From contig JAKPSI010000031.1 of assembly GCA_029555415.1 (NCBI GenBank), forward strand, positions 1 to 64,000: DNA of 64,000 nucleotides, read 5' to 3'. Below are positions 13,018-56,999 of the stretch, piece after piece; within the stretch, counting starts at the first letter, position 1; each line of letters opens with the position of its first letter. The notes beneath the pieces were generated by a model. That model made no database searches, had not been told where the DNA came from, and saw only the letters and a program-made list of their open reading frames with translations. Source of the stretch: Bacteroidota bacterium (GTDB lineage: Bacteria > Bacteroidota > Bacteroidia > Chitinophagales > Chitinophagaceae). Both the position numbers and the translations under genes were made by a program.

Positions 13018-13056
13018 CAGCGAAGATAATCAAAACAGCGGAAAACGCAAGCTATG

Positions 13057-13112
13057 CAGTCGGTAGTATGTAATCGATAGTCATTAGTCAATAGTCTGTA
13101 GTCAATACAGAG
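13057..13112. repeat. Heptanucleotide-period array (word TAGTCAA)
   Basis: Eight 7-nt units run without a phase break from 13057 to 13112. Most resemble TAGTCAA (examples TAGTCAT, TAGTCTG). Read on the minus strand the word is nnGACTA. The array ends at the base next to the stop codon of the minus-strand gene 13113-13631. It is an imperfect tandem repeat, not coding. Confidence 0.8.
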
Positions 13113-13631: not shown

Positions 13632-13675
13632 ATAGATAAATGACCAGATAAAATGAATGAATGCTGCTTGGGGGT

Positions 13676-13710
13676 GGCTACTAGCTACTAGCTACTAGCT
13701 ACTGGCTGCT
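13676..13710. repeat. Heptanucleotide-period array (word AGCTACT)
   Basis: Five units of 7 nt: three perfect copies of AGCTACT flanked by GGCTACT and GGCTGCT. It lies between the gene ending at 13631 and ffh. Confidence 0.85.
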
Positions 13711-41074: not shown

Positions 41075-42835
41075 ATGAAGAAAACCACAATCACATTTCT
41101 GATTTCCGCCCTGATGGCCCTCGGGGGTCTGAAAGCGCAATCTGTGCAGGAGGGCATGAATTATTTGTACGCGGACAGATTCAAAAGTGCCATCGGTGTA
41201 TTCCAGAAGTTATTGGCAACCAATCCCAATAATATTGAAGCCACCTATTGGCTGGGACAGACTTATCTGGATCTGGACGACAATGCCAAGGCAGAGGATC
41301 TTTACACAAAGGCTATAGCAGCAAGTGCCAATGCACCGTTGTTACTGGTCGGTAAAGGCCATTGTGAACTCCTGAATAAAAAAACGGATGAAGCCCGCCA
41401 GCATTTTGAAGCGGCTTTGACCATGACCCGTACAAAAAAGGGTGATGACCCCCTGATCCTGACTGCGATCGGACGTGCGAACGTGGATGCCAAAGCAGGA
41501 GATATCGCTTATGCAGTGGAGAAACTTGAAGCCGCTGTACTCCGTGATCCTAAGAACACTGAGACTTACCTCCAGCTCGGTAACGCTTACCGCAAATTAC
41601 GCCCCGGTGAAGGTGGAGGTCAGGCGTTCCTGAACTATAAAAAAGCATTGGAGATCAACCCGAATTTTGCTGTGGCCAGCGTACGCCTTGCCAAGCTGTT
41701 TGAATCCCAGAAGAACTGGGATCTGGTGATACAGTATCTCACAGATGCGGTTACCCAGGACCCTAAATTCTCTTTGGCTTATCATGAACTCTTCTATTAT
41801 TATTTTTTCCGCCAGAACTATGCGGAAGCTGAAAATCAGTTGAAAAAACTCATTGATAGCAAGCTGCCTGAAGATGATATCCAGGACCAATCCCTCTATG
41901 CACAGCTTTGCTGGGCCAGAAAGGATTTTGACTGCGCTATCGCCAAAGACCTTGCTGTTGTTGCCTCTCAGGGAGAACACCCGAAGCCTAAAGTGCTGAA
42001 ACTCCTGGCTGACGCGTATTATCAGAAAGCTGATTATGCGAACGCTAAAAAATTCATTGATGATTACATGGCGCGTGAAAAAACTGAAGACAAGATCGCG
42101 TATGACTATAAACTGAAAGCGGATATCTACGCTAAATTGGGCACACCCAGTCCCGACCTGTATAGCATTTATATGGAAGGTGCAGCCATGGATACGGTGG
42201 TACAGTCCCGGATCGATTACATGACCGTTGCCGCGGATTCATTCAAAGCGCGTGGTTCCAAAAAACAAGAAGCGGATATGCGTCTCGCTATCTATAAAAC
42301 GCGTTTGAAACCTCAGCCTGGCGGACTGATCAATATCGGTATTCTCTACACACAGTGTGGTGAACTTCCGACAGCTGACAGCCTGTTCAAAGCTTACACA
42401 GTTGTAATGCCTGACAGTGTTTACGGTTACGTATGGAGAGGCCGTGTGAATTTCACACAGGATACCACAATGACCGTTGAACCTTTTGTGAGCAATATGG
42501 TGACCTCCTTCCAGAAAGCACTGGATATCGCTTATACGGATAAGGTCCGCATGAAATCCCAGGGTATCAACGCTTCCATTACACTGGCCGGATATTTCTA
42601 TAATATCAAAAAGGATAAGGAAACGGCCCTGATGTATACCAGAAAAGGCCTGGAATTCGATTCCACCAACGGAACACTGAAAAGCATCCTTCCGGTCCTG
42701 ACCGCCCCTTCCCGTAACCCCGCACCCCGTGGTAACGTGATGCCTGAAGCGGTTCAAAAGGCAGGAACACCGGCTGATAAACCCGCTGCCGTAAAACCCA
42801 GAACATCCAAAGCCCCTCAGGGCGTAAAGAAATAA
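41075..42835 (+). CDS. Exported tetratricopeptide-repeat protein
   Basis: A signal peptide (about 1-21, ending LKAQ) precedes 586 residues of helix pairs of TPR type, for example NIEATYWLGQTYLDLDDNAKAEDLY, ETYLQLGNAYRKLRP and KVLKLLADAYYQKADYANA. The last 40 residues are basic and proline-rich. It is likely a periplasmic scaffold for protein contacts. It is the last gene of the tonB-PstS-like operon and is followed by a terminator. Confidence 0.9.
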   Translation: MKKTTITFLISALMALGGLKAQSVQEGMNYLYADRFKSAIGVFQKLLATNPNNIEATYWLGQTYLDLDDNAKAEDLYTKAIAASANAPLLLVGKGHCELLNKKTDEARQHFEAALTMTRTKKGDDPLILTAIGRANVDAKAGDIAYAVEKLEAAVLRDPKNTETYLQLGNAYRKLRPGEGGGQAFLNYKKALEINPNFAVASVRLAKLFESQKNWDLVIQYLTDAVTQDPKFSLAYHELFYYYFFRQNYAEAENQLKKLIDSKLPEDDIQDQSLYAQLCWARKDFDCAIAKDLAVVASQGEHPKPKVLKLLADAYYQKADYANAKKFIDDYMAREKTEDKIAYDYKLKADIYAKLGTPSPDLYSIYMEGAAMDTVVQSRIDYMTVAADSFKARGSKKQEADMRLAIYKTRLKPQPGGLINIGILYTQCGELPTADSLFKAYTVVMPDSVYGYVWRGRVNFTQDTTMTVEPFVSNMVTSFQKALDIAYTDKVRMKSQGINASITLAGYFYNIKKDKETALMYTRKGLEFDSTNGTLKSILPVLTAPSRNPAPRGNVMPEAVQKAGTPADKPAAVKPRTSKAPQGVKK

Positions 42836-42864
42836 GAACTCGGTTTTCTTCTTTTACTTAAGAA

Positions 42865-42897
42865 AGTCCTCTTGCATTTTTGCAGAGGGCTTTTCTT
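42865..42897 (+). terminator. Terminator after the TPR gene
   Basis: A 12-bp stem pairs 42865-42876 with 42881-42891 and is followed by a T-rich stretch. It separates the tonB cluster from the nuo operon. Confidence 0.8.
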
Positions 42898-42966
42898 TTG
42901 TGGAAGCATCCTGCCACGATCATGGGTCCGGATGATTTTAGTTAAGGTAATTTCAGGCCACCGCCT

Positions 42967-42974
42967 TATTTTTG
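42967..42974 (+). promoter_or_regulatory. -7 promoter box before nuoA
   Basis: TATTTTTG fits TAnnTTTG, 18 nt before the nuoA ATG at 42993. No clear -33 TTTG. Confidence 0.5.
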
Positions 42975-42992
42975 CGGCAGACAAAAAAGGCT

Positions 42993-43388
42993 ATGTTCCA
43001 ATTACTTCAAAGCGGCCTCAATGGTACCGGAGCGGGTTCTTACCTGCCCGTTGTGATCCAGATTATTTTTGCGGTTGGCCTTGTGGCCTTCCTCATGGTG
43101 GTAACGCACATGCTGGGTCCCAAACGCAAAACGACCGACAAACTTCAGAATTTTTCCAGTGGTATTGAATCGCATGGTGACGCAAGGCACCCGATGGCCA
43201 TCAAGTATTTCCTGACAGCCATCCTTTTCGTGCTTTTCGATGTAGAGGTGATCTTTTTTTACCCCTATGCGGTCAACTTCAAGATGCTTGGCTGGAACGG
43301 GTTCTGGGCCGTTATGCTCTTTGTGGCCTTCTTCCTGTGCGGATTCATCTATATCATCAAGAAAGGCGCATTGAAGTGGGAGGACTAA
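42993..43388 (+). CDS. nuoA: NADH-quinone oxidoreductase subunit A
   Basis: The 131-residue protein has three membrane helices and the family signature with KRKTTDKLQNFSSGIES and FDVEVIFFYPYAV. It is a membrane subunit of Complex I at the hinge to the peripheral arm. The ATG at 42993 is chosen; an in-frame TTG at 42972 lies in the promoter box. It opens the 14-subunit operon. Confidence 0.95.
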   Translation: MFQLLQSGLNGTGAGSYLPVVIQIIFAVGLVAFLMVVTHMLGPKRKTTDKLQNFSSGIESHGDARHPMAIKYFLTAILFVLFDVEVIFFYPYAVNFKMLGWNGFWAVMLFVAFFLCGFIYIIKKGALKWED

Positions 43389-43431
43389 GTCCTGAGGTTG
43401 TAAGATCATTGTAAAGAAATAAATAACCAAG

Positions 43432-44016
43432 ATGCCAAGACCCGTAGCATATAATCTCATTCAGAAAAAACTGGAATCAGATATCAGCATCGTGGGTGCG
43501 CCTGAAGGACATCCGGGAGAAGGCTTTTTCGCCACCTCTCTCAATAATGTCATCGGCCTGGCCAGGAAGAACTCCATCTGGCCGCTTCCTTTTGCCACCT
43601 CCTGTTGCGGTATCGAATTCATGGCCACCATGGGCTCGCATTATGATCTGGCCCGCTTCGGCAGCGAACGCGTGGGGTTTTCACCCCGCCAGTGTGACCT
43701 GCTGATGGTCATGGGAACGATCGCCAAGAAAATGGGCCCCGTTGTGAAACAGGTGTATCTGCAAATGGCCGAACCCCGTTGGGTCATGGCCATCGGTGCC
43801 TGTGCCTGCAGCGGAGGCATATTCGATACTTACAGTGTACTGCAGGGTATCGATCAGGTTGTTCCGGTGGATGTTTATGTGCCAGGATGCCCGCCCAGAC
43901 CCGAAGCGATCATCGACGGACTGATCCGCATCCAGGACCTGGTAGGAAAAGAAAGTCTCCGCAGAAGGAACGGGGACGAATACAAAGCTTTGCTGGAATC
44001 ATACGGAATACAGTAA
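43432..44016 (+). CDS. nuoB: NADH-quinone oxidoreductase subunit B
   Basis: The 194-residue protein has the [4Fe-4S] cluster N2 ligands: the cysteine pair in ATSCCGIEFMA, a cysteine in GACACSGGIF and one in VPGCPPRPEAI. N2 passes electrons to quinone. It lies 43 nt after nuoA. Confidence 0.97.
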   Translation: MPRPVAYNLIQKKLESDISIVGAPEGHPGEGFFATSLNNVIGLARKNSIWPLPFATSCCGIEFMATMGSHYDLARFGSERVGFSPRQCDLLMVMGTIAKKMGPVVKQVYLQMAEPRWVMAIGACACSGGIFDTYSVLQGIDQVVPVDVYVPGCPPRPEAIIDGLIRIQDLVGKESLRRRNGDEYKALLESYGIQ

Positions 44017-44046
44017 TCAACGATGCCGGCACCATTGCCGGCTTAA

Positions 44047-44562
44047 ATGCATACAATGGGGCTGACGAACGAACATATCAAACAAAGGCTGACCGAAAAA
44101 TTCGGTGATCAGCTGATCAATTTTGAAGAGCCTTACGGGATGCTCACTTTTGAAGCACCCCGCGAACTGAACCTCAAAGTGCTCAACTTCCTGTACGATG
44201 ATGAAGAACTGAAGTTCCGTTTCATGACGGACCTCTGCGCCGTACATTACCCCGACAATAAAGGCAAGGAACTGGCTGTGGTGTATCATCTCCATAACCT
44301 GGTCGACAATTGCCGCATTCGCTTTAAAGTTTTTGCACCGGTCGAACAGCCGGATGTATATACCGCTACAGGACTGTTTTCAGCCGCGAACTGGATGGAA
44401 CGCGAGACCTACGATTTCTACGGGGTCAATTTCGTCGGCCATCCGAACCTGAAAAGGATCCTGAATGTGGAAGAGATGGATTATTTCCCGCTGCGCAAGG
44501 AATTCCCACTGGAAGACCAGAGCCGCGTGGATAAGGATGATGAAATGTTCGGAAGGGGGTAA
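44047..44562 (+). CDS. nuoC: NADH-quinone oxidoreductase subunit C
   Basis: The 171-residue protein has the 30-kDa subunit motif (TGLFSAANWMERETYDFYGVNF, HPNLKRIL). It is separate from NuoD, not fused as in E. coli. An ATG at 44056 is another possible start. It lies between nuoB and a small membrane protein gene. Confidence 0.95.
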   Translation: MHTMGLTNEHIKQRLTEKFGDQLINFEEPYGMLTFEAPRELNLKVLNFLYDDEELKFRFMTDLCAVHYPDNKGKELAVVYHLHNLVDNCRIRFKVFAPVEQPDVYTATGLFSAANWMERETYDFYGVNFVGHPNLKRILNVEEMDYFPLRKEFPLEDQSRVDKDDEMFGRG

Positions 44563-44572
44563 TTCACTGGGA

Positions 44573-44785
44573 ATGGCGCGACTTGGGAAATATAAACTGC
44601 TGTACCGGATCGTCTGTTTTCTGGTATTTGTAGCAGCAGCTTATATGAGATTTGAAGAGTATAGTGAAAAGGGGAAAAATGAGCTGTTGGTTTTCGCCAT
44701 CGCATTCACGCTTTTGGCACTGATCACAGCTGGTGAGGTCATAAGTATTTTAAGAACGAAGAAAGAAAAGTCCATAAATATTTAA
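44573..44785 (+). CDS. Small membrane protein embedded in the nuo operon (70 aa)
   Basis: The 70-residue protein (MARLGKYKLLYRIVCF) has two hydrophobic segments (about 10-24 and 37-60). I recognise no family. It starts 10 nt after nuoC and ends 26 nt before nuoD, so it is likely co-transcribed with Complex I genes. A role as an accessory or assembly factor is possible but unsupported beyond its place. Confidence 0.6.
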   Translation: MARLGKYKLLYRIVCFLVFVAAAYMRFEEYSEKGKNELLVFAIAFTLLALITAGEVISILRTKKEKSINI

Positions 44786-44811
44786 AGTCAATTCCCCCCG
44801 GGGATCGGTTT

Positions 44812-46035
44812 ATGTCAGAACAGCATATCAAATTACCGGAAGGCAGTATCGAAAAGACCACCACCACGCTGAACCTGGGTCCCACGCACCCGGCCACGCA
44901 TGGTGTATTCCAGAACATCCTGGAACTGGACGGGGAACGCATTGTTTCCACGGAACAGACCGTTGGTTATATCCACCGCGCATTCGAGAAGCTGGCGGAA
45001 CGCCGCCCGCTCTTCCAGATCACACCGATCACGGATCGCCTGAACTACTGTTCTTCGCCGCTCAATAACATGGGCTGGCATATGACCTGCGAAAAATTAC
45101 TGGGTATCAAAACCCCCAAACGTGTCGATTACCTGCGTGTCATCATCATGGAACTGGCGCGTATCTCCGATCACCTCATCTGCAACTCGATCGTGGGTGT
45201 GGATGCAGGAGCTTATACCGGTTTCCTGTATGTGATGCAATACCGAGAGCTGATCTATGAGATCTATGAAGAGATCTGCGGTTCACGCCTCACCACCAAT
45301 ATCGGACGCATCGGCGGATTCGAACGCAACTTCAACGATATCGCATTCCAGAAACTCGAGAAATTCCTGAAAGAATATCCCGGTGTGCTGAAAGAATTCG
45401 AGAATCTCTTCCAGCGCAACCGCATCTTCATGGACCGGACAAAGCTTACCGGTGCCATCAGTGCGGAACGTGCACTCAATTATGGATTCACCGGCCCGAA
45501 CCTGCGTGCAGCAGGCGTGGACTACGATGTGCGGGTGCATTCACCTTACAGCAGTTACGAAGATTTTCAGTTCAATATACCTGTGGGTACCACTGGCGAC
45601 AATTACGACCGCTGGATGGTCCGCAGCCGCGAAATGTGGGAATCACTCAGCATCCTGGAACAGGCCTGGCATAAGATCCAGGATTTCGAAGGCGCTGAGG
45701 CGGATGTATTCCATGCGGATGTTCCGGAATACTTCCTTCCTGAAAAGAAAGATGTTTATACGAAGATGGAAGCACTCATCTGGCATTTCAAGATCATTAT
45801 GGGAGAAACAAAGATCCCGGCCGGTGAAGTATATCATTCTATCGAAGCCGCGAATGGTGAACTGGGATACTACCTCATCAGTGATGGCGGCCGTACTCCT
45901 TATCGTTTGCACTTCCGCAGGCCCTGTTTCATCTATTATCAGGCCTATGAGGAACTGACCAAAGGCGGCATGCTGAGCGATGCGATCATGACGATGAGTA
46001 GTTTGAATCTGATCGCGGGTGAACTGGACGCATGA
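44812..46035 (+). CDS. nuoD: NADH-quinone oxidoreductase subunit D
   Basis: The 407-residue protein has the 49-kDa signature (LGPTHPATHG, RLNYCSSPLNNMGW, IGRIGGFERNFND). It forms the quinone-binding pocket with NuoB. Its stop codon is directly followed by a heptanucleotide array. Confidence 0.97.
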   Translation: MSEQHIKLPEGSIEKTTTTLNLGPTHPATHGVFQNILELDGERIVSTEQTVGYIHRAFEKLAERRPLFQITPITDRLNYCSSPLNNMGWHMTCEKLLGIKTPKRVDYLRVIIMELARISDHLICNSIVGVDAGAYTGFLYVMQYRELIYEIYEEICGSRLTTNIGRIGGFERNFNDIAFQKLEKFLKEYPGVLKEFENLFQRNRIFMDRTKLTGAISAERALNYGFTGPNLRAAGVDYDVRVHSPYSSYEDFQFNIPVGTTGDNYDRWMVRSREMWESLSILEQAWHKIQDFEGAEADVFHADVPEYFLPEKKDVYTKMEALIWHFKIIMGETKIPAGEVYHSIEAANGELGYYLISDGGRTPYRLHFRRPCFIYYQAYEELTKGGMLSDAIMTMSSLNLIAGELDA

Positions 46036-46112
46036 TAGAAGGTAAGAGCTAAGAGATAAAAGGTAAGAGATTTAGAACGAACTAACAGCTACAAGCTAAC
46101 AGCTTGGAGCTT
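46036..46112. repeat. Composite heptanucleotide array between nuoD and nuoE
   Basis: Eleven 7-nt units in one unbroken phase begin at the base after the nuoD stop. The first five resemble TAAGAGA (also TAAAAGG). A short core with AGAACGAACTA follows, and the last four units carry AGCT (ACAGCTA, CAAGCTA). It occupies most of the 92-nt gap. Confidence 0.88.
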
Positions 46113-46127
46113 CTGAAAATAAAGACA

Positions 46128-46628
46128 ATGACAACTTTCTCTCCAGAGAAATTAAATGAGTTTCAACGGCTCGTTTCCGCTTATCCGGAAGGAAAGCAGA
46201 AGAGCGCGCTGATCCCGGTACTGCACCTGGCACAACAGGAATTCGGCGGATGGCTGAGTTCTGACACCATGGACTATGTGGCTTCATTGCTGAAGCTGGA
46301 TCCCATCGAAGTGTATGAAGTGGCCACCTTTTACAGCATGTTCAACCTGAAGCCGGTTGGTAAATACATGTTCGAAGTTTGCCAGACCGGTCCCTGTATG
46401 CTGAACGGCAGTGATAATATCATCGCGTATATCGGTCAGAAACTGGGTATCAAACCCGGTGAAACGACCGCTGATGGTATGTTCACGCTGAAGACCGTTG
46501 AGTGCCTCGGTGCCTGCGGTTATGCGCCGATGATGCAACTGGGGAAACATTACCGGGAGCACCTTACAAAAGAGAAAGTGGACGCGATCATCGCTGAATG
46601 TTCACAGCAAGCCGCGAAACAGAACTGA
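46128..46628 (+). CDS. nuoE: NADH-quinone oxidoreductase subunit E
   Basis: The 166-residue protein has the thioredoxin-like [2Fe-2S] ligands of NuoE: CQTGPC and, about 35 residues on, CLGAC. It holds cluster N1a. The start at 46128 (MTTFSPEKL) is preferred over an upstream ATG at 46104 that lies inside the repeat. The stop overlaps the next start by a single base (TGATG). Confidence 0.95.
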   Translation: MTTFSPEKLNEFQRLVSAYPEGKQKSALIPVLHLAQQEFGGWLSSDTMDYVASLLKLDPIEVYEVATFYSMFNLKPVGKYMFEVCQTGPCMLNGSDNIIAYIGQKLGIKPGETTADGMFTLKTVECLGACGYAPMMQLGKHYREHLTKEKVDAIIAECSQQAAKQN

Positions 46629-47062
46629 TGAAAGGGTTGCTGAACATATTATTCGTCTTCCTGGGTATCGGAGCGATGGCTCAGCCCAAAGATCAGATCA
46701 AAGTGCTGGGTAATGCCCGGTTACTGGAGCAGACGGTGTTCGGAACGAAGGATAGTGCGACGATCGATAAATTATTCGCTGCGAATGTGACCTATATCCA
46801 TTCCAGCGGGAAAACAGAAACAAGGACCGAAGCTTTGAACGGGATCATTCATAACGGATCGGTGTACACGAAGTCGGCAGCAGCTTTTCCGTATCAATTC
46901 TCCACAAGAGGGGATTCTGCGGTCGTGGTCCATGTGTTCAAAGCAACAGAAAAGAAAGTGGATGGAACGGAATCGTTGCTGAACCTGTCGATCGAGACGG
47001 TTTGGGTGAAAGAGAAAAAAGATTGGAAAATGACCAGAAGACAAGCCACTAAAGTCCAGTGA
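46628..47062 (+). CDS. Exported NTF2-like (DUF4440-type) protein, first of a pair
   Basis: The 144-residue protein has a signal peptide (about 1-18, ending AMAQ) and a compact alpha-beta domain with TIDKLFAANVTYIHSSGKTETRTEAL and a WVKEKKDWKMTRRQAT end. These features fit the NTF2/SnoaL/DUF4440 fold. Its ATG overlaps the nuoE stop. The next gene is a paralog. Why exported proteins lie in the nuo operon is unclear; substrate unknown. Confidence 0.75.
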   Translation: MKGLLNILFVFLGIGAMAQPKDQIKVLGNARLLEQTVFGTKDSATIDKLFAANVTYIHSSGKTETRTEALNGIIHNGSVYTKSAAAFPYQFSTRGDSAVVVHVFKATEKKVDGTESLLNLSIETVWVKEKKDWKMTRRQATKVQ

Positions 47063-47063
47063 A

Positions 47064-47480
47064 ATGAGAATGAGTTTTTTCGTTTTGTTGTTGTTTAGCC
47101 GCCTTGTTTGTCTGGCGCAAACGAATGAAGAAAAGCTGTCGCTGACGATAAAGCAATTCCATGCGGCTCTTGTCGCGAAGAATACGGTATCGGTCAACCA
47201 GCAAACGGATAAGGCGCTGAGTTACGGACACAGCAACGGATGGGTAGAGAATAAAGCGGAACTGATCAGCCACCTGGAAACAGGGTACATGGTCTACAGA
47301 AGCTTTACAGAGGATAGCCTGAAAGTGACGATCAACGGAAATATGGCGCACGCCCGTTTTGTGGCCGATATCGCAGCAACACTGAACGGAAACCAGGGCG
47401 CTTATCATCTGAAAGTGCTGGAGGTCTGGGTGAGGAAAGGGAACAGGTGGTTGTTGTTTGCAAGGCAAGCGGTGAGATAA
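47064..47480 (+). CDS. Exported NTF2-like (DUF4440-type) protein, second of a pair
   Basis: The 138-residue protein has a signal peptide (about 1-19, ending CLAQ). Its domain shows ALSYGHSNGWVENKAEL and LKVLEVWVRKGNRWLLFARQA, parallel to the previous gene (YIHSSGK..., VWVKEKKDWKM). It starts 1 nt after that gene's stop, so they form a tandem pair in one operon. Its stop is directly followed by the largest heptanucleotide array. Confidence 0.75.
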   Translation: MRMSFFVLLLFSRLVCLAQTNEEKLSLTIKQFHAALVAKNTVSVNQQTDKALSYGHSNGWVENKAELISHLETGYMVYRSFTEDSLKVTINGNMAHARFVADIAATLNGNQGAYHLKVLEVWVRKGNRWLLFARQAVR

Positions 47481-47648
47481 TGGAGAGTTGATAATTGAGA
47501 ATTGATAACTGAGAATGGAGAATGGATAATGGGAGTGAGTAGGTGAAAAGTAAGAGATAAAAGGTAAGAGGTAAAAGGTAAGGAGCGTTGAAATAAAGAA
47601 GGAGTTAAATAGAACGAACTAGTAGCTAACAGCTATAAGCTAGCAGCA
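47481..47648. repeat. Heptanucleotide array filling the gap before nuoF
   Basis: The whole 173-nt gap 47481-47653 reads in 7-nt steps from the base after the stop codon, 24 units with no phase break, then five nt to the nuoF ATG. Word type changes along it: TTGATAA and TTGAGAA, then TAAGAGA and TAAAAGG, then a core with AGAACGAACTA, then AGCT words (AACAGCT, ATAAGCT). Confidence 0.92.
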
Positions 47649-47653
47649 ATTTT

Positions 47654-49015
47654 ATGGGCAGAAAATTATTATTAGACAAAGCACACGTTGAGAACATCAG
47701 GCAGTATGATGTATACCGTCAGAACGGCGGGTACAGAAGCGTTGAAAAAGCGCTGAAAAGTATGAGCCCTGATGCCGTAACCGAAGAGGTCAAGAAAAGC
47801 GGACTCCGCGGACGCGGTGGTGCCGGCTTCCCCACCGGTATGAAATGGAGCTTCCTGGCAAAACCGGAAGGCGTTCCCCGTTATCTCGTTGTCAATGCCG
47901 ATGAATCAGAGCCGGGTACTTTCAAGGACCGTTACCTGATGGAATTCATCCCCCACCTGCTTATCGAGGGGATGATCGTGGCTTCTTTCGCTTTGGGATC
48001 AACACGCTCTTATATCTATATCCGCGGTGAATATGCCTGGATCGTTGGTATCCTGGAACAGGCTATCGCTGAAGCCCGTCAGAACGGCTGGCTCGGTAAG
48101 AATATCCTCGGCTCCGGATTTGATTGCGACATCTATGTGCAGCGTGGTGCCGGTGCCTATATCTGCGGTGAAGAAACCGCATTGCTTGAATCACTGGAAG
48201 GCAAACGCGGTAACCCCCGCATCAAACCACCATTCCCGGCCGTAAAAGGTCTGTGGGATTGCCCGACCGTTGTGAACAATGTGGAGACCATTTCAGCGGT
48301 CGTGCCCATCATCAACGAAGGCGGTGATGAATATGCCAAGATCGGCGTAGGCCGTTCCACCGGAACCAAACTGATCTCTGCCTGCGGCAATATCAAAAAG
48401 CCAGGCGTGTACGAGATCGACATGACCATCAGTGTGGAAGAATTCATTTACAGTGACGAATATTGCGGCGGTATCGCGAACGGTAAAAGGCTCAAAGCCT
48501 GTATCCCCGGCGGTTCTTCCGTCCCCATCCTGCCCGCGAACCTGCTGCTGAAAACTGCGAAAGGTGAAAAGCGCATCATGAATTATGAAAGTTTGAGCGA
48601 TGGCGGTTTCGCGACCGGTTCGATGATGGGATCCGGCGGATTCATCGTACTCGATGAAGACCAGTGCGTCGTTCGTCATACTTATACACTGGCCCGTTTC
48701 TATCGTCATGAAAGCTGCGGACAATGTTCACCCTGCCGCGAAGGGACCGGATGGATGGAAAAGATCCTCTGGAACCTGGAATCAGGAAAAGGAAAATCAA
48801 GCGATATCGACCTGCTCTGGGATATCCAGCGCAAGATCGAAGGCAATACGATCTGTCCCTTAGGTGATGCGGCCGCATGGCCCGTTGCTGCGGCGATCCG
48901 CCACTTCCGCGATGAATTTGAATGGCATGTGACCAATGCGGCGGAATCACAAACAAGGAATTTCGGACTGGCACATTATGCCAATGAATTACCTGTAGCT
49001 CCGGCTTCAGTATAA
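47654..49015 (+). CDS. nuoF: NADH-quinone oxidoreductase subunit F
   Basis: The 453-residue protein has the glycine-rich NADH loop (GLRGRGGAGFPTGMKW), the FMN site (NADESEPGTFKDR) and the N3 cluster ligands in SCGQCSPCREG with the far cysteine in TICPLGDAA. It takes electrons from NADH. Its start comes 5 nt after the array. Confidence 0.97.
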   Translation: MGRKLLLDKAHVENIRQYDVYRQNGGYRSVEKALKSMSPDAVTEEVKKSGLRGRGGAGFPTGMKWSFLAKPEGVPRYLVVNADESEPGTFKDRYLMEFIPHLLIEGMIVASFALGSTRSYIYIRGEYAWIVGILEQAIAEARQNGWLGKNILGSGFDCDIYVQRGAGAYICGEETALLESLEGKRGNPRIKPPFPAVKGLWDCPTVVNNVETISAVVPIINEGGDEYAKIGVGRSTGTKLISACGNIKKPGVYEIDMTISVEEFIYSDEYCGGIANGKRLKACIPGGSSVPILPANLLLKTAKGEKRIMNYESLSDGGFATGSMMGSGGFIVLDEDQCVVRHTYTLARFYRHESCGQCSPCREGTGWMEKILWNLESGKGKSSDIDLLWDIQRKIEGNTICPLGDAAAWPVAAAIRHFRDEFEWHVTNAAESQTRNFGLAHYANELPVAPASV

Positions 49016-49023
49016 AGAAGGAA

Positions 49024-49860
49024 ATGAAAAGGACCGTTCTCATATTCTTGATCATGATGCTCATGGCAACCGGCTGGTCGCAATCCGCCGCGCGTCACAG
49101 CAGTACTTCCAAAGGAAGTGTTTACATCTCATGGGGATGGAACCGCGCCATCTATACGAACAGCAATATCTGGTTCAAAGGCGGCGATTATAATTTCGTG
49201 TTGTATCAGGTCAAAGCACACGACAGACCTACATTCCCTGTCAGTTATCATAATTACCTGCAGCCGAACCGGCTGACCATTCCACAGACCAATTTCCGGA
49301 TGGGTTATTTCATCAAGGACAATCTGGCGATCGTGATCGCGGATGATCACATGAAATATGTCATGGATAACGGACAGGATGTGATGATGAAAGGAACGAT
49401 CACCAGACCGGGCAAATTCTTCGGCACTTATTCAGGCCCGAAAACACTGACCCGTGATTTTCTGCTTTTCGAACATACCAACGGTTTGAATTACCTGAAT
49501 GTGGAGATCGAGAAATATTATACCTGGCATCATTCCGCCAAAGGCACGCAGGTGAGTGGTATCCTGGGTGGCGGTACCGGGATCTTGTATCCCAAGACCG
49601 ATGTGACCCTGATGGATTATCCGGAGAATGACCAATTCCATGTGACCGGTTTCGGATTATCGGCCAGAGCGGGTGTAAGAGTGACATTCATGGACCGTGT
49701 TTTCGCGAAACTGGAGAATAAAGTAGGGTATATCAATATGCCGGATATTCTGTTGCACGCATCCGATATCAAGGGTGGTGCCCATCAGGCATTCTGTTAT
49801 ACTCAATTCACCGGTATGATCGGTTTTTCGCTGAATACCGGAAAGAAACAAAAAAAATAA
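49024..49860 (+). CDS. Probable outer-membrane beta-barrel protein within the nuo operon
   Basis: A signal peptide (about 1-20, ending GWSQS) leads a 278-residue protein rich in aromatic alternating strands (SVYISWGWNRAIYTNSN, FRMGYFIKDNLAIVI, GLSARAGVRVTFMDRVFAKLENKVGYINM). It ends in FTGMIGFSLNTG. I recognise no family. It begins 8 nt after nuoF and ends 22 nt before nuoG, so it should be co-transcribed with Complex I. Confidence 0.75.
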   Translation: MKRTVLIFLIMMLMATGWSQSAARHSSTSKGSVYISWGWNRAIYTNSNIWFKGGDYNFVLYQVKAHDRPTFPVSYHNYLQPNRLTIPQTNFRMGYFIKDNLAIVIADDHMKYVMDNGQDVMMKGTITRPGKFFGTYSGPKTLTRDFLLFEHTNGLNYLNVEIEKYYTWHHSAKGTQVSGILGGGTGILYPKTDVTLMDYPENDQFHVTGFGLSARAGVRVTFMDRVFAKLENKVGYINMPDILLHASDIKGGAHQAFCYTQFTGMIGFSLNTGKKQKK

Positions 49861-49882
49861 ATTCATTGAAATAGCGTAGCGC

Positions 49883-50986
49883 ATGTCAGAACCATCGAAA
49901 TTATTCAAAGTAACCATCGACAATATCACGGTGGAAGTGGAGCCGGGAACAACGATCCTCATGGCCGCCCGTAAGATCGGCGGAGATGTAGCGCCTCCCA
50001 CCATGTGCTTTTACAGCAAGCTGAAAGGCAGTGGTGGTAAATGCCGTACCTGTCTGGTGGAAGTATCCGCCGGATCCACGGCCGATCCGCGCCCGATGCC
50101 CAAACTGGTAGCCAGCTGCCGTACGAATGTCATGGACGGGATGATAGTGAAGAACATCACCAGTGAACGTGTTCTGGATGCCCGCGCCGGTGTGGTGGAA
50201 TTCCTGCTGCTGAATCATCCGCTGGATTGCCCGATCTGCGACCAGGCCGGTGAATGTCATTTACAGGACCTCGGCTATGAACATGGTAAAGCGGGTACCC
50301 GTTACGAATTCAAACGCCGCACTTTCGAGAAAGAAGATATCGGTCCTTATATCCAGTTGCATATGACACGTTGCATCCTTTGCTATCGTTGTACTTATGT
50401 AGCGGATCAGCTGACCAATAACCGCGTGCATGGTGTACTCGAAAGAGGCGATCATGCGGAGATCTCCACTTATATCTCCAAATCGATCGACAGCGAATTC
50501 AGCGGTAACATGATCGATGTTTGTCCCGTTGGTGCACTGACCGATAAGACCTTCCGTTTCAAGAACCGTGTATGGTTCACCAAGCCGGTTGACGCACACC
50601 GTGATTGTCCTACCTGCTGCGGTAAAGTGACCTTGTGGCAAAGAGGTGATGATGTACTGCGCGTCACTGCACGTAAGGACGAATGGGGTGAAGTACAGAG
50701 CTATGATGGTAAACCCGGCTGGATCTGCAATACCTGCCGTTTTGATAAGAAGCATACAGCGGACTGGGTCATTGAAGGGCCCACGAAGATCGACCGTCAT
50801 TCCGTGATCTCACAGGGTCACTATGTCGGATTGCAGCAACCGAAAGAGACCGTACAGGCGGTGATGGGCGGAAGAGCACCCAAACTGCTGATGGATATTC
50901 ACAGTGTCAGTGACGTGAACAGCGTTGATATCAGTGCGCTGCCCGGACCTGCCACCAGTAAAACATTTGATAAGAAGAATCAATAA
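49883..50986 (+). CDS. nuoG: NADH-quinone oxidoreductase subunit G, short form
   Basis: The 367-residue protein has the [2Fe-2S] ligands in GGKCRTCLV, the His-Cys cluster in HPLDCPICDQAGEC, the [4Fe-4S] cluster in RCILCYRC and DVCPVGAL, and the additional cysteines CPTC and CNTC. The molybdopterin-like domain of typical 700-900-residue NuoG is missing. This short form is, as far as I recall, usual in Bacteroidota rather than a truncation, and the frame ends cleanly before nuoH. Confidence 0.93.
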   Translation: MSEPSKLFKVTIDNITVEVEPGTTILMAARKIGGDVAPPTMCFYSKLKGSGGKCRTCLVEVSAGSTADPRPMPKLVASCRTNVMDGMIVKNITSERVLDARAGVVEFLLLNHPLDCPICDQAGECHLQDLGYEHGKAGTRYEFKRRTFEKEDIGPYIQLHMTRCILCYRCTYVADQLTNNRVHGVLERGDHAEISTYISKSIDSEFSGNMIDVCPVGALTDKTFRFKNRVWFTKPVDAHRDCPTCCGKVTLWQRGDDVLRVTARKDEWGEVQSYDGKPGWICNTCRFDKKHTADWVIEGPTKIDRHSVISQGHYVGLQQPKETVQAVMGGRAPKLLMDIHSVSDVNSVDISALPGPATSKTFDKKNQ

Positions 50987-50994
50987 CTGCCGAC

Positions 50995-52047
50995 ATGTTG
51001 TTAAACATCTATATCGACTGGGCTTTTGTGCTGGAGAAATTCCTGCTCGTGGCCGTCATCGTTACCCTTTCTCTGGTGATCGCGATGTACACAACGTACG
51101 CGGAACGTAAAGTGGCCGCCTGGTTGCAGGACCGCCGCGGTCCCAACCGTGCGGGTCCTTTCGGACTGCTGCAACCGCTGGCGGATGGAGGTAAACTTTT
51201 CTTCAAAGAAGAGATCATCCCGCTCGCATCCTCCAAATTCCTGTTCATCCTCGGGCCTTCCCTGGCCATGATCACGGCAACATTGACCAGCGCCGTCATT
51301 CCCTGGGGCACCTCCCTGCATCTATTCGGACGCGATATCTCTTTACAGATCGCGGATGTCAATATCGGTATCCTGTACATTTTTGGTGTCGTGAGTCTCG
51401 GTGTCTATGGTATCATGATCGGTGGCTGGGCCTCCAATAACAAATTCTCACTGCTCGCTGCCATCCGTGGCGCGTCACAAATGATCTCTTATGAACTGGC
51501 GATGGGTCTCGCCCTGATCGCATTGCTGATGATGACCGGTTCCCTGCAGATGAGTGTGATCGTGAAGAATCAGGTAGCGAATGGCTGGCATATCATCTAT
51601 CAGCCACTGGGTTTCCTGATCTTCTTCGTTTGCGCGCTGGCCGAATGTAACCGTACACCGTTCGACTTAGCGGAAGCGGAGAATGAACTGAACTTCGGTT
51701 ATCACCAGGAGTACTCTTCCATGAAACTCGGATTTTATCTCTTTGCGGAGTATATCAATATGTTCATCAGCAGTGCGGTGATGTCCACGCTTTATTTCGG
51801 AGGATACGATATCCCGTTCGTGAATGAAGCAGCATGGAACATCGATGCCAATCTGCTGGCACTGATCGGCTTCGCGGTACTGATGGCCAAAACGTTCTTC
51901 TTCCTGTTCGTATTCCTGTGGATCCGCTGGACCATCCCGCGTTTCCGTTACGATCAGCTGATGAACCTGGGCTGGAAAAAACTGATCCCGCTCGCACTGA
52001 TCAATATGGTGGTCACTGCAGCCGTGATCTTATGGCTTAAAAAATAA
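50995..52047 (+). CDS. nuoH: NADH-quinone oxidoreductase subunit H
   Basis: The 350-residue protein has eight membrane helices and the ND1 motifs TYAERKVAAWLQDRRGPNRAGP, NNKFSLLAAIRGASQMISYE and EYSSMKLGFYLFAEYI. It forms the quinone tunnel and proton-coupling hinge. It is 8 nt after nuoG. Confidence 0.97.
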   Translation: MLLNIYIDWAFVLEKFLLVAVIVTLSLVIAMYTTYAERKVAAWLQDRRGPNRAGPFGLLQPLADGGKLFFKEEIIPLASSKFLFILGPSLAMITATLTSAVIPWGTSLHLFGRDISLQIADVNIGILYIFGVVSLGVYGIMIGGWASNNKFSLLAAIRGASQMISYELAMGLALIALLMMTGSLQMSVIVKNQVANGWHIIYQPLGFLIFFVCALAECNRTPFDLAEAENELNFGYHQEYSSMKLGFYLFAEYINMFISSAVMSTLYFGGYDIPFVNEAAWNIDANLLALIGFAVLMAKTFFFLFVFLWIRWTIPRFRYDQLMNLGWKKLIPLALINMVVTAAVILWLKK

Positions 52048-52106
52048 AAAAATAAGGGGATGAACCCCGGAAAATAAATTGCTCACCAGCAACAAGTAAA
52101 CAGAAC

Positions 52107-52652
52107 ATGCAATTAACACAGCGCGCAAAACAGGTAGACCGCAGACCCATGACTTTCGTGGAAAGCCTCTACCTGTGGAATATCGCCAAGGGGATGTGGA
52201 TCACGTTTACGCACCTGTTCAAGAAACGTCCGACCATCAACTATCCCGAACAGACCCGGAGTTTTTCCAAGGTTTTCCGCGGACTGCACGTACTGAACCG
52301 TGATGCAGAAGGCCGTGAGAATTGTACCGCATGCGGATTATGTGCGGTAGCCTGTCCTGCTGAAGCCATCACGATGGAAGCAGCAGAACGCCTGCCCGGA
52401 GAAGAGAACCTGTACCGTGAAGAGAAATATGCGGCGAAATACGAGATCAATATGCTGCGCTGCATCTTCTGCGGATTATGTGAAGAAGCCTGCCCGAAAG
52501 ACGCGATCTATCTGTCGCAGACATTCGCGCCTGCCAACTACGGAAGAAAAGGATTCATTTATAAGAAAGATGAATTACTGATACCTCACCCGGTGAATGA
52601 TCCGCAGGGCTACCAGAAAGCCCGGGAAGAGAAATCGGGAAAAGTGAAGTAA
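52107..52652 (+). CDS. nuoI: NADH-quinone oxidoreductase subunit I
   Basis: The 181-residue protein has two [4Fe-4S] ferredoxin motifs, CTACGLCAVACP and CIFCGLCEEACP. It relays electrons from NuoG to NuoB. The gap before it has a short GGGG/CCCC hairpin (52056-52068) but no clear terminator. Confidence 0.97.
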   Translation: MQLTQRAKQVDRRPMTFVESLYLWNIAKGMWITFTHLFKKRPTINYPEQTRSFSKVFRGLHVLNRDAEGRENCTACGLCAVACPAEAITMEAAERLPGEENLYREEKYAAKYEINMLRCIFCGLCEEACPKDAIYLSQTFAPANYGRKGFIYKKDELLIPHPVNDPQGYQKAREEKSGKVK

Positions 52653-52682
52653 AATTAATACGCGCACCAACGCTTTGAGAAA

Positions 52683-53180
52683 ATGAACATTACGCAAATA
52701 CTTGTCGGCAGTCTTTCGGTCATCACACTTTTCAGTGCGCTGATGGTGATCATCAGCAGAAATCCTGTGCATAGTGTGTTATGGCTGATCGTGACCTTCT
52801 TTTCCATTTCCGGACATTATATCGTGCTGAACGCTCAGTTCCTGGCGATCGTGAACATCATCGTGTACGCGGGCGCCATCATGGTATTGTTCCTGTTCGT
52901 TATCATGCTTATGAACCTGAACCGTGAAACGGAACCCCAGAAGAACAAATGGCTGAAACTGGCCGGAGTTTTATCAGGCGGAAGTTTATTGCTTGTGATC
53001 GTTGCGGCATTGCACACCGGCGACATCAAAGCAATGGCCCAGGTGAAAGAAGGGGATATCGGACTGATCGGAACCCTCGGAAAGGAACTGTTCAGCACGT
53101 ATGTGGTGCCTTTCGAGATCAGCAGCATCCTGTTCCTGAGCGCGATGGTCGGTGCGGTCGTGATCGGAAAAAAAGAATAG
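52683..53180 (+). CDS. nuoJ: NADH-quinone oxidoreductase subunit J
   Basis: The 165-residue protein has five membrane helices and the ND6 motif VNIIVYAGAIMVLFLFVIML. It couples the quinone site to the antiporter subunits. A heptanucleotide array starts directly after its stop. Confidence 0.95.
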   Translation: MNITQILVGSLSVITLFSALMVIISRNPVHSVLWLIVTFFSISGHYIVLNAQFLAIVNIIVYAGAIMVLFLFVIMLMNLNRETEPQKNKWLKLAGVLSGGSLLLVIVAALHTGDIKAMAQVKEGDIGLIGTLGKELFSTYVVPFEISSILFLSAMVGAVVIGKKE

Positions 53181-53257
53181 TTATAGTGGATAGTGGATAA
53201 TTGATAGTGGATAATTGGTAATGGATAATTGATAACATAGAAAGATAACAAGCAACA
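53181..53257. repeat. Heptanucleotide array between nuoJ and nuoK
   Basis: Eleven 7-nt units begin right after the nuoJ stop and run in one phase, with words near GGATAAT (GGATAGT, TGATAGT, TGATAAC). Later units become looser. It takes up most of the 83-nt gap to nuoK. Confidence 0.88.
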
Positions 53258-53263
53258 TATAAC

Positions 53264-53572
53264 ATGCCTATCGTTTATTATTTATATCTGTCACTCGCCC
53301 TCTTTTGCATCGGCATCGTGGGTGTACTGACCCGCCGGAACGCGATCATCATCTTCATGTGCATCGAGATCATGCTCAATGCAGTGAACCTGCTGCTGGT
53401 GGCGTTCTCCAAGATGCATCCGCCCAAAGCGGGGATCGACGGGCAATTATTCGTATTCTTCATCATGGTCGTGGCTGCCGCTGAAGTGAGTGTGGGACTG
53501 GCCATCATCGTCATGATGTACCGCCGTATCCACTCGGTGGATGTGAATTTCTTAAACAGGTTAAAACATTAA
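53264..53572 (+). CDS. nuoK: NADH-quinone oxidoreductase subunit K
   Basis: The 102-residue protein has three membrane helices and the conserved glutamates in [11 protein letters not shown] and [10 protein letters not shown]. It is the ND4L antiporter-like subunit. Confidence 0.96.
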
Positions 53573-53591
53573 TCGGACTTAGAACTCCCGT

Positions 53592-55487
53592 ATGGAAAAT
53601 GTGCTCCAAATAGTATGGCTGATTCCTTTCCTTCCTTTACTGGGTTTCCTGGTGAATGGTCTGGGCAGGAAATACATGCCCAAAGCAATGGTCAGTATCG
53701 TTGGCTGTGGCGTGATCCTCGCGTCTTTCCTCATGAGCATCTGGGTATTCATTCATGTGCGTGAGGGCGGCGGTTATGTGGCGGATTATTTCAACTTCAT
53801 TGTTGTCGACAAACTGAAGATCCCCTTCGCACTGCAGGTGGATGAACTGTCTTCCCTTTTCCTGATGATCATCACCGGCGTAGGTTTCCTGATCCACGTT
53901 TATTCCACCGCTTACATGCATGAAGAGAAGCCGGAACATTTCGGCCGTTATTTCGCTTACCTCAATCTGTTCGTTTTCTCCATGTTGCTGCTCGTGATGG
54001 GCGCCAACTATGTGATCATGTTCATCGGCTGGGAAGGTGTAGGGCTCTGCTCATACCTGCTCATCGGATACTGGTTCAAGAATGTCGCATTCAATAAAGC
54101 CGCGAACAAGGCTTTCGTCATGAACCGCATTGGTGACCTGGCTTTCCTCATCGCGATCTTCTGGATCATTGCCAAAGTGGGCAATGCCAATTATGCGGAT
54201 GTGATCGCTTTCGCCAAAGCTGGGAAATTCGGTGCTTCAGATATCACGGTGATCACTTTACTGCTGTTCGTTGGTGCTACCGGTAAAAGCGCACAGATAC
54301 CTTTATATACCTGGTTGCCGGACGCGATGGCGGGCCCAACACCCGTTTCCGCACTGATCCACGCCGCAACGATGGTCACAGCGGGTATCTATATGATCGC
54401 CCGCAGCAACGCACTCTATTCGCTTTCCGATCTCACGATGCATGTGGTCACTTATGTGGGACTCGCGACAGCGATCCTGGCCGCAACGATCGCGGTTCAG
54501 CAGAATGATATCAAGAAAGTACTGGCTTACTCCACCGTGAGTCAGCTGGGTTATATGTTCATGGCACTGGGTCTCGGTGCTTACTCAGCAGCGGTTTTCC
54601 ATGTCATGACACACGCCTTCTTCAAAGCCCTGCTCTTCCTCGGCAGTGGTAGTGTGATCCATGCAATGAGCGGTGAACAGGATATCCGTAATATGGGCGG
54701 TCTCGGAAAGAAACTGAAGATCACCTCCTTCACATTCCTGATGGGTTGTATCGCTATTGCCGGTATTCCTCCGTTCAGCGGTTTCTTCTCCAAAGATGCG
54801 ATCCTGCTGAGCGCCTTTGAAGAAAACAAAGCATTATATGCGGTGGCATTGCTCGGTGCATTGCTCACGGCTTTCTATATGTTCCGTTTATTCTTCATCA
54901 CGTTCACCGGAAAATTCCGCGGAACGGAAGATCAGGCGCATCATGTACATGAAAGCCCGCTGTCCATGACCCTTCCGCTGATCATCCTTGCTGTACTGGC
55001 GCTTGCCGGTGGCTGGGTGGGTATTCCGGAAGTGTTCATGAAAGGAGGGGATAAACTCTCCGCCTTCCTGTCGCCGGTGATCCCTGTTAAAGAAGGTGAA
55101 AGTCCGGGGCACAGCACGGAACTGGCGCTGATGGCCATTTCCACCATAGCGGTCCTTGCAGTGATCGCATTTTCCTGGTTCCGTTTCCGCGGGTATCAGC
55201 GAAAAGGTGAGGCGCAGGGTCTTGCTAAAGTACTCGAGAATAAATGGTATGTGGATGAACTGTATGAAAAGATCATCGTGAAACCGCTGCAGCAATTCGG
55301 CAGTTTCCTGAATGATGTTTTTGAAAGATCGGTGGTGGACGGACTCGTGAACGGTGTTGGCCGTGCGGTCAGTTACAGCAGCCGGCAACTGCGGTTGCTG
55401 CAAAGCGGACAGGTAGGCAGTTATGTACTGCTGATGGTGCTGAGCATGCTGCTGATCTTCGTCTTACAGTTTTTCCTGAGAAAATAA
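53592..55487 (+). CDS. nuoL: NADH-quinone oxidoreductase subunit L
   Basis: The 631-residue Mrp-type antiporter subunit has the usual motifs (FIGWEGVGLCSYLLIGYW, WLPDAMAGPTPVSALIHAATMVTAGIYM) and the long amphipathic lateral helix near the end. It pumps protons at the tip of the membrane arm. It lies 19 nt after nuoK. Confidence 0.97.
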   Translation: MENVLQIVWLIPFLPLLGFLVNGLGRKYMPKAMVSIVGCGVILASFLMSIWVFIHVREGGGYVADYFNFIVVDKLKIPFALQVDELSSLFLMIITGVGFLIHVYSTAYMHEEKPEHFGRYFAYLNLFVFSMLLLVMGANYVIMFIGWEGVGLCSYLLIGYWFKNVAFNKAANKAFVMNRIGDLAFLIAIFWIIAKVGNANYADVIAFAKAGKFGASDITVITLLLFVGATGKSAQIPLYTWLPDAMAGPTPVSALIHAATMVTAGIYMIARSNALYSLSDLTMHVVTYVGLATAILAATIAVQQNDIKKVLAYSTVSQLGYMFMALGLGAYSAAVFHVMTHAFFKALLFLGSGSVIHAMSGEQDIRNMGGLGKKLKITSFTFLMGCIAIAGIPPFSGFFSKDAILLSAFEENKALYAVALLGALLTAFYMFRLFFITFTGKFRGTEDQAHHVHESPLSMTLPLIILAVLALAGGWVGIPEVFMKGGDKLSAFLSPVIPVKEGESPGHSTELALMAISTIAVLAVIAFSWFRFRGYQRKGEAQGLAKVLENKWYVDELYEKIIVKPLQQFGSFLNDVFERSVVDGLVNGVGRAVSYSSRQLRLLQSGQVGSYVLLMVLSMLLIFVLQFFLRK

Positions 55488-55508
55488 TTTAGGATTTAGA
55501 ACATTCAT

Positions 55509-56987
55509 ATGATCCCTGTTTTACTGATAACAATTCCCTTACTGGCCGGCCTGGCCACCTTTTTCATCCGTGATGAAAAAGCCGCCAGGTCATGGGCTTT
55601 GCTTGCATCCCTGCTCACGCTGGGTTGTGCTGTGGCCGGCATCACATTTCTGAAAGGCGCTGCTAACCTGGAGGCCCATGCGCAATGGTTGCCGGCACTG
55701 GGGGCGCAGTTTTCCGTCAAGCTCGACGGTATGGGGCAGTTGCTCTGTCTGCTGACCGCCGTGTCCTACCCGGTGATCTTCCTCGGAACCTGGAAAGCAA
55801 CTTATGCCAATGCAAAGAATTTCTTTGCGCTGATGCTCCTCGCGCAGGCAGGTCTCATGGGTGTATTCCTTTCCATGGATGCATTATTATTCTACTTCTT
55901 CTGGGAACTGGCGCTGATCCCGATGTATTTCCTCTGCTCTACCTGGGGCGGCGACAAGAGGATCCGTGTTTCTTTCAAGTTCTTCATTTATACTTTCCTC
56001 GGTTCCGTACTGATGCTGATCGGTATCCTGTATGTGTACGGAATGACGAAGGATCAGTCCTTCTCCATCAACTCATTTTATAACGCGGGTCTGAGCAACG
56101 CGCAGCAGAATAAATTATTCTGGCTCTTCTTCATCGCCTTTGCGATCAAGATGCCCATCTTCCCGTTCCATACCTGGCAGCCGGATACTTATGAACAGGC
56201 ACCAACGGCCACGACCATGGTCCTGAGCGGTGTGATGGTCAAGATGGGTGTGTTCGCGGTCATCCGCTGGTTGTTGCCGGTATTGCCACTGGCTTCCTAT
56301 GCATGGGGTGATGTGGTCACTACTTTGGCCATAACGGGAATGATCTATGCCTCGCTGATCGCGATCAGGCAGGATGATCTGAAACGTCTCGTTGCTTATT
56401 CTTCCATCGCCCACATCGGACTCATGTGCGCTGCGATCTTCTCTGAAACAGAGAGTGGCATGCAGGGTGTGATGATCCAGATGTTCAACCACGGTATCAA
56501 TATCATCGGTCTGTGGCTGGTCGTGGAAATGATCGAAAGACAATTCGGTACCCGCAAGATCTCTGAACTCGGTGGTTTGGCGCAGAAAGCACCCGCGATG
56601 GCGATCCTGCTGGTGATCGTGGCGCTGGCCAATATCGCGCTGCCGCTTACCAATGCTTTCCCTGGTGAATTCCTGATGTTCAATGGCATCTTCAGTTCAA
56701 CGGTAACGCAATATTATTTATGGTTCACGGTACTGGGCGGACTCAGTATCATCTTCGGCGCGGTCTATACGCTGAATATGATCCGCAAAGTGTTCTACGG
56801 TGAAAGCAATGCGCTGACAGCCGGTGCACAGGATATCCGCTGGAATGAGCAACTGGCACTGGGAGTGATCGTTATCCTGATCCTCTGGCTGGGTGTTTGT
56901 CCGCAAACGCTGCTCAATACCGTACAGGAGACCGCTCATTCTATTTTAAATAAAGCAGATGTGCTGCCCTATATAAGAAAGCACTAA
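55509..56987 (+). CDS. nuoM: NADH-quinone oxidoreductase subunit M
   Basis: The 492-residue protein has the ND4 motifs (FFWELALIPMYFL, FHTWQPDTYEQAPTATTMVLSG, AYSSIAHIG). It is the middle antiporter subunit of the membrane arm. It lies 21 nt after nuoL. Confidence 0.97.
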   Translation: MIPVLLITIPLLAGLATFFIRDEKAARSWALLASLLTLGCAVAGITFLKGAANLEAHAQWLPALGAQFSVKLDGMGQLLCLLTAVSYPVIFLGTWKATYANAKNFFALMLLAQAGLMGVFLSMDALLFYFFWELALIPMYFLCSTWGGDKRIRVSFKFFIYTFLGSVLMLIGILYVYGMTKDQSFSINSFYNAGLSNAQQNKLFWLFFIAFAIKMPIFPFHTWQPDTYEQAPTATTMVLSGVMVKMGVFAVIRWLLPVLPLASYAWGDVVTTLAITGMIYASLIAIRQDDLKRLVAYSSIAHIGLMCAAIFSETESGMQGVMIQMFNHGINIIGLWLVVEMIERQFGTRKISELGGLAQKAPAMAILLVIVALANIALPLTNAFPGEFLMFNGIFSSTVTQYYLWFTVLGGLSIIFGAVYTLNMIRKVFYGESNALTAGAQDIRWNEQLALGVIVILILWLGVCPQTLLNTVQETAHSILNKADVLPYIRKH

Positions 56988-56999
56988 TTACAGGAAATT

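Follow-up and report, generated by a model that had tools for sequence, protein, structure and literature searches.

The gap upstream of nuoF in a member of the Chitinophagaceae combines three STRR-like heptamer arms of the gene-border type

The 173-bp gap upstream of nuoF in a Chitinophagaceae genome (assembly GCA_029555415.1) is a composite of three gene-border arms, each built from 7-nt units. The window analyzed is the 64,000-nt stretch at positions 1 to 64,000 of contig JAKPSI010000031.1. The gap belongs to a known kind, the STRR-like heptamers, because heptamer arrays with these features are already described in the available text of three earlier papers (PMC4692102, PMC4679880, PMC2670836). 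The intergenic regions of this bacterium and of related ones contain hundreds of such arms, and the nuoF gap is an unusually varied case. It is therefore no single oddity, and heptamer arms form a little-understood class of bacterial repeats. They consist of genome-wide families of 7-nt words with a fixed outward polarity, often occur as inverted pairs, and occupy gaps poor in promoters and intrinsic terminators.

The gap lies inside the nuo operon, downstream of nuoE (2Fe-2S thioredoxin-like) and directly after the second of two DUF4440 (NTF2-like) genes that stand between nuoE and nuoF (window 46628-47480). A 278-aa ORF without a Pfam match lies between nuoF and the next nuo gene (window 49024-49860). 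A preliminary description had given the gap this length and position and had claimed a 7-nt periodicity; both statements were confirmed, the second against shuffled controls. Lag-7 identity is 0.548, compared with 0.319 +/- 0.034 in 5000 dinucleotide shuffles, none of which reaches the observed value (z 6.7), which rules out a chance origin of the periodicity. Identity is also high at lag 14 (0.560) and lag 21 (0.493). No Rfam family matches positions 42000-58000, and a known structured RNA was rejected on this basis.

The same description read the gap as 24 consecutive units without a phase break. Periodicity is indeed strong over 47481-47585 and returns in the AGCT part, but the roughly 28 nt in between (47586-47613) are silent, with lag-7 matches at chance level (4/21) and a best local lag other than 7. 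This silent stretch, the inversion of the third arm and the lack of a fixed register between the A and B arms rule out one continuous single-phase array. The AGCT part, previously taken as the continuation of one drifting array, is a separate element on the other strand, and the array does not begin at the base after the stop codon, as had been proposed: the first GATAATG unit of the A arm (47476-47482) already contains the DUF4440 stop codon TAA (47478-47480). Words do change within the gap, which is thus not a near-perfect repetition of one word. In the genome the offsets between A and B core starts, modulo 7, are scattered (0 in two cases, 1 in two, 2 in five and 3 in two), so the phase that A and B share in this gap does not hold generally. 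The A and B arms make up most of the gap (Table 1).

Table 1. Heptamer arms and associated features, in window positions
Feature	Position	Strand	Remarks
D arm (TAGTCNN)	13052..13112	+	
C arm	13675..13710	+	
B arm after nuoD, nuoD-nuoE gap	46036..46071	+	
Cap TTAGAACG and inverted C arm before nuoE	46072..46112	-	Layout as in the nuoF gap
A arm, nuoF gap	47476..47532	+	7-8 GATAATK/GAGAATK-type units, pointing away from the DUF4440 gene
B arm, nuoF gap	47543..47585	+	About 6 units of GGTAANA type (printed GTAAGAG/GTAAAAG), polarity as the A arm
Stretch without lag-7 signal, nuoF gap	47586..47609	.	Separates the outward arms from the inverted arm
Distal cap TAGAACG (CGTTCTA on the minus strand), nuoF gap	47610..47616	-	Same in-phase position as in other C, D and I arms of the genome
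C arm, nuoF gap	47617..47648	-	About 4 units of AGCTNNT type, inverted, abuts the nuoF start (ATG 47654)
A arm, most of the nuoJ-nuoK gap	53183..53242	+	

The nuoD-nuoE gap shares a layout with the nuoF gap: an outward B arm, a cap, an inverted C arm and a start codon. On the plus strand the caps read TTAGAACG in the former and ATAGAACG in the latter, each at the inner end of the inverted C arm; the final base of the nuoF-gap cap departs from the consensus YYCTAA.

How general are such arms? We sampled 1.25 Mb of the 3.97-Mb genome, an assembly of 139 contigs, with genes called by a simple codon-usage caller, so that stop positions are firm and start positions approximate. Lag 7 and its multiples (14, 21) are the only strongly enriched lags between genes. 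Among the 571 gaps that measure 60 bp or more, 78 reach an identity of 0.6 over 42 bp at lag 7, compared with 0-4 at lags that are not multiples of 7, and the coding sequence of the sample holds no lag-7 array at this threshold. Arrays of the word families are intergenic in 200 of 208 cases. About seven families recur: A (GATAATK), B (GGTAANA), C ([AG]GCTNNT), D (TAGTCNN), E (TTTTGAA), G (GGGTTNN) and I (AAGCTNN). In D arms TAGTC is constant, and the two bases after it are free to vary. As a separate observation, the same place in the TAGTC word of two D arms on contig C22 (75552-75946 and 200058-200148) holds a 20-bp palindrome, CCTGCCTGCCGGCAGGCAGG, as if inserted. Judged from the words, only G, and at best B with its GG, could form a G-quadruplex; C, D, E and I have no G-tracts, and A has GG only in some units. 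Since the same rules hold for words unable to form one, the G-quadruplex is unlikely as a general cause, and an account is needed that does not depend on the word.

Arms lying within 45 bp of a gene border point outward in 121 cases and inward in 10 (3' ends 90:8, 5' ends 31:2). They sit at the border itself, often with the stop codon inside a word. Neighbouring arrays in one gap face each other 43 times and face apart once. Both arms belong to the same family in 12 of 23 gaps (expected 18%, p 3e-4), about half of the facing pairs are built from differing words, and many arms have no matching partner. The idea of a gene cassette, with one family at both ends of a gene, fits 3 of 9 genes, a small sample. 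Because word directions had been labelled after the data were seen, the polarity test was repeated without labels, by asking whether arrays in different gaps that share same-strand words lie on the same side of the gap. The odds ratio is 5.1 in this genome, 7.4 and 11.2 in two others (G014 and the Chitinophagaceae strain LGM1) and 10.2 over 80 nuo loci; array pairs were counted, so the p-values overstate independence. In Flavobacterium denitrificans the ratio is 1.25 and not significant. Gaps of that species (L161-L180) are enriched at lag 8 (43), lag 7 (35) and lag 16, unlike those of the present genome. TTTTGA points outward in the present genome and CAAAA in LGM1; since the sign of polarity is opposite, it is not set by composition or stop codons, and the difference counts against a fixed sequence signal. 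Translation-stop cassettes were also considered and rejected: most outward words of the present genome carry stop codons, but the outward rule holds upstream of starts too, and the outward words of LGM1 are mostly without stops.

Arms are most frequent between convergent genes. Among gaps of 100-300 bp they occur in 20 of 33 convergent, 51 of 191 tandem and 7 of 92 divergent ones. By a plain pattern match, a GC hairpin followed by a T-tract is present in 4 of 94 array gaps and in 47 of 284 other convergent and tandem gaps (p 0.0015), despite the greater length of the array gaps. This scarcity invites the main rival to the account we favor below, in which the arms are a selected gene-border element: paired arms would act at transcript ends, as a two-way terminator or 3'-end stabilizer, in place of a GC hairpin with a U-tract, and as an intercistronic hairpin inside operons. 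The covariation of arms across species, described below, speaks for such a role, as does the proposal that heptamer hairpins at hupS-hupL act on mRNA stability, coupling or termination (PMC2670836, from its available text). However, the AU-rich stems contain 2-nt mismatches and lack a U-tract, and folding-energy z-scores of array gaps equal those of gaps without arrays, which leaves a stable selected hairpin unsupported. The many unpaired arms and those inside the nuo operon also fit this role poorly. The scarcity of terminators fits either a replacement of terminators by arms or arms tolerated only where nothing functional lies. On balance, we consider a selected element somewhat unlikely.

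Comparison with related genomes bears on how the words change. Across 80 nuoF loci of Bacteroidota, 33 carry a total of 115 arrays in tandem gaps; where arrays within one nuo gap share words, 18 are inverted and 3 direct. The clearest paired arms are near-perfect GATGAAT heptamer hairpins that fill two nuo gaps of a Saprospiraceae MAG (L097, 849-960 and 4880-5009). In one well-compared orthologous gap of Chryseobacterium (L112, 4298-4388), chosen because word change was visible there, L112/L102, L106, L103/L109 and L105 each have words of their own, and the change affects the two arms at once: their complementarity persists as words are replaced from one related species to another. Complementarity is 19.7 within a species' own arms and 10.5 between species, and 1 of 720 permutations is as good. 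Over all nuo array gaps, the left half likewise fits its own right half better than the right halves of other gaps (12.6 vs 8.4).

Length changes in steps of seven, which the preliminary description had led us to expect between relatives, were not in excess. Where orthologous array gaps could be aligned, they hold 317 indels of 4 nt or more, and 43 of these are multiples of 7, the proportion expected by chance, although the alignments are loose. The relatives are separate species at about 80-92% identity, not strains, and single-step changes may therefore be overwritten. Plain degenerate heptanucleotide microsatellites, made by polymerase slippage in 7-nt steps followed by point mutation, would account for the near-geometric lengths of A and B arms (up to 15 units) and for neighbouring B units being slightly more alike than expected; heptamers are also over-represented among long SSRs in many bacteria, according to work cited in the available text of PMC4692102 and PMC4679880. 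Slippage nevertheless leaves unexplained the polarity, the common lexicon and the inverted, covarying arms. It does not account for the C, D, E and I arms, which are limited to 4-5 (rarely 6) units, for the cap, or for neighbouring D units, whose variable bases are less alike than chance (letter identity 0.22 vs 0.35, p 0.004). The indels show no excess of 7-nt steps either, and we regard microsatellites as an improbable explanation.

The cap deserves separate consideration. Reading outward, YYCTAA(G) often follows A, C, D, G and I arms, and in arms carrying a cap its offset is fixed and in phase (D 11/11, C 7/8, I 5/5, A 3/4). The arms could form the inverted termini of a small MITE- or REP-like mobile element, with the cap at its inner border. 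A cap common to the C, D, I and A families, a fixed size of four units and the replacement of whole gaps between species would agree with this, and the genome has one Y1 transposase gene, the only one found (contig C33, 4959-6622; L181). That gene, however, is flanked by a different repeat, the GC-rich REP-like GCGATAGAATA and GCGGGACTNNAAGTCCCGC, which are themselves dispersed in other gaps, and dispersal of the arms by the Y1 transposase was rejected on these grounds. No element with a coding middle was seen, and we judge a mobile element very unlikely.

The omega repressor of pSM19035 binds 7-bp heptads. By analogy, a protein that binds DNA or RNA in steps of 7 nt might read the conserved half of each word, as the constant TAGTC of D words beside its free NN and the strict heptad period within arms would allow. 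Against such a protein lattice stand the many unrelated words per genome and the position of the arms, most of which lie at 3' ends and few at promoters; no account of omega heptads was found in the open-access papers searched. We give this explanation very little credence.

How, then, might the arms arise? A mainly mutational and dispersal account seems to us the most likely, and we hold it tentatively. Arms would arise and spread as near-palindromic units, and 7-nt duplication would lengthen an arm. One arm may then be copied onto the other, by template switching at the hairpin or by ectopic recombination with another gap; such copying would keep arms matched and replace words as blocks. Outward polarity would be automatic, because a palindromic unit has one and the same sequence whichever way round it inserts, and the sign of polarity would be fixed by the founder word of each genome. 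Arms in promoters and coding sequence would be removed by purifying selection, while those of the nuo operon would appear in the transcript as intercistronic spacer and influence the mRNA weakly at most. The recurring lexicon, the polarity and its differing sign between genomes, the inverted pairs and their covariation, the border position, the gap-type bias and the ordinary folding all argue for this account. Several observations count against it. A fresh 7-nt duplication would not give the anticorrelated D units, and the lengths of C, D, E and I arms are not geometric. Arm copying is not universal, because half of the facing pairs use different words, and the common in-phase cap looks like a constrained site. 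The negative polarity test in F. denitrificans also weighs against it; the comparison of related species revealed no insertion or excision of arms, nor any excess of 7-multiple indels.

A broader possibility, unlikely in our estimation, is that Bacteroidota have a word-independent gene-border system, which on the strength of published reports would extend to Xanthomonas, Nostoc and Beggiatoaceae. Geometry rather than sequence would be conserved: a 7-nt step with about four units per arm, outward polarity, inverted arms that covary, and a distal cap. The arms would then be transcript-end elements replacing intrinsic terminators, or be written by a dedicated process. Given the covarying arms and the few intrinsic terminators in array gaps, a transcript-end function is directly testable in culturable Chryseobacterium or Chitinophagaceae.

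Which known systems do the arms resemble? The preliminary description named heptanucleotide STRRs as the nearest class, rightly so: tandem units of exactly 7 nt and an intergenic location are features of the heptanucleotide STRR or heptameric SSR class and are both found here, whereas near-perfect repetition of one word, another feature of that class, is not. Compared by description, cyanobacterial STRRs share the 7-bp units, the hairpin potential and the position at gene 3' ends or between cistrons; the available text of a Nostoc study discusses hairpins made of heptamers both at hupS-hupL and after the end of a gene (PMC2670836). REP and MITE elements are likewise intergenic, palindromic and dispersed, and the arms differ from them in being heptamer arrays with genome-specific words.

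MacGregor (2015, PMC4679880) reports direct repeats of TAACTGA in Beggiatoaceae, Cyanobacteria and five Bacteroidetes. They are intergenic and lie beside start or stop codons, most of them just upstream of starts; in Flexibacter litoralis their orientation upstream of starts is opposite to that downstream of a stop. Rotating the A word GATAACT gives TAACTGA, which occurs once in the nuoF gap, inside the A arm and not in tandem (47506-47512), and perfect tandem copies of the GATAACT rotation are present in other Bacteroidota. The published repeats are perfect copies of one word, related heptamers being rarely repeated in BOGUAY, and inverted covarying arms are not described in the text available. 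The preliminary description knew of no multi-word version; this needs qualification, since PMC4679880 reports other heptamer direct repeats beside TAACTGA in gaps of Gramella, Aequorivita and Elizabethkingia, although a many-word version under one set of rules was not found in its available text.

A further close match, in the text available, is with the GGGAATC and GGGGA(C/T)T heptamers of Xanthomonas and Nostoc, discussed around G-quadruplexes (Rehm et al. 2015, PMC4692102). These show a four-unit preference, outward polarity, stop-codon overlap, variability, scarcity between divergent genes and, in Xanthomonas, convergent inverted pairs. Outward polarity at both gene ends (121:10) and convergent inverted pairs (43:1) are seen here too; the C, D, E and I families fit the four-unit length, whereas A and B, which account for most of the nuoF gap, do not. 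That system has one G-quadruplex-forming word type per genome, and the present one has about seven families, most of them unable to form one, together with a common cap, covarying arms and terminator exclusion. Four features were not found in the available text of PMC4692102, PMC4679880 and PMC2670836: many words under one set of rules, arms that covary in an orthologous gap, a cap in phase with the units, and the exclusion of terminators; our survey covered the open-access literature, and earlier accounts may exist. Judged from the sequences compared, what appears to be new is that across Bacteroidota many words without G-quadruplex potential obey these rules, with arms that covary and a distal cap, YYCTAA, in phase with the units.
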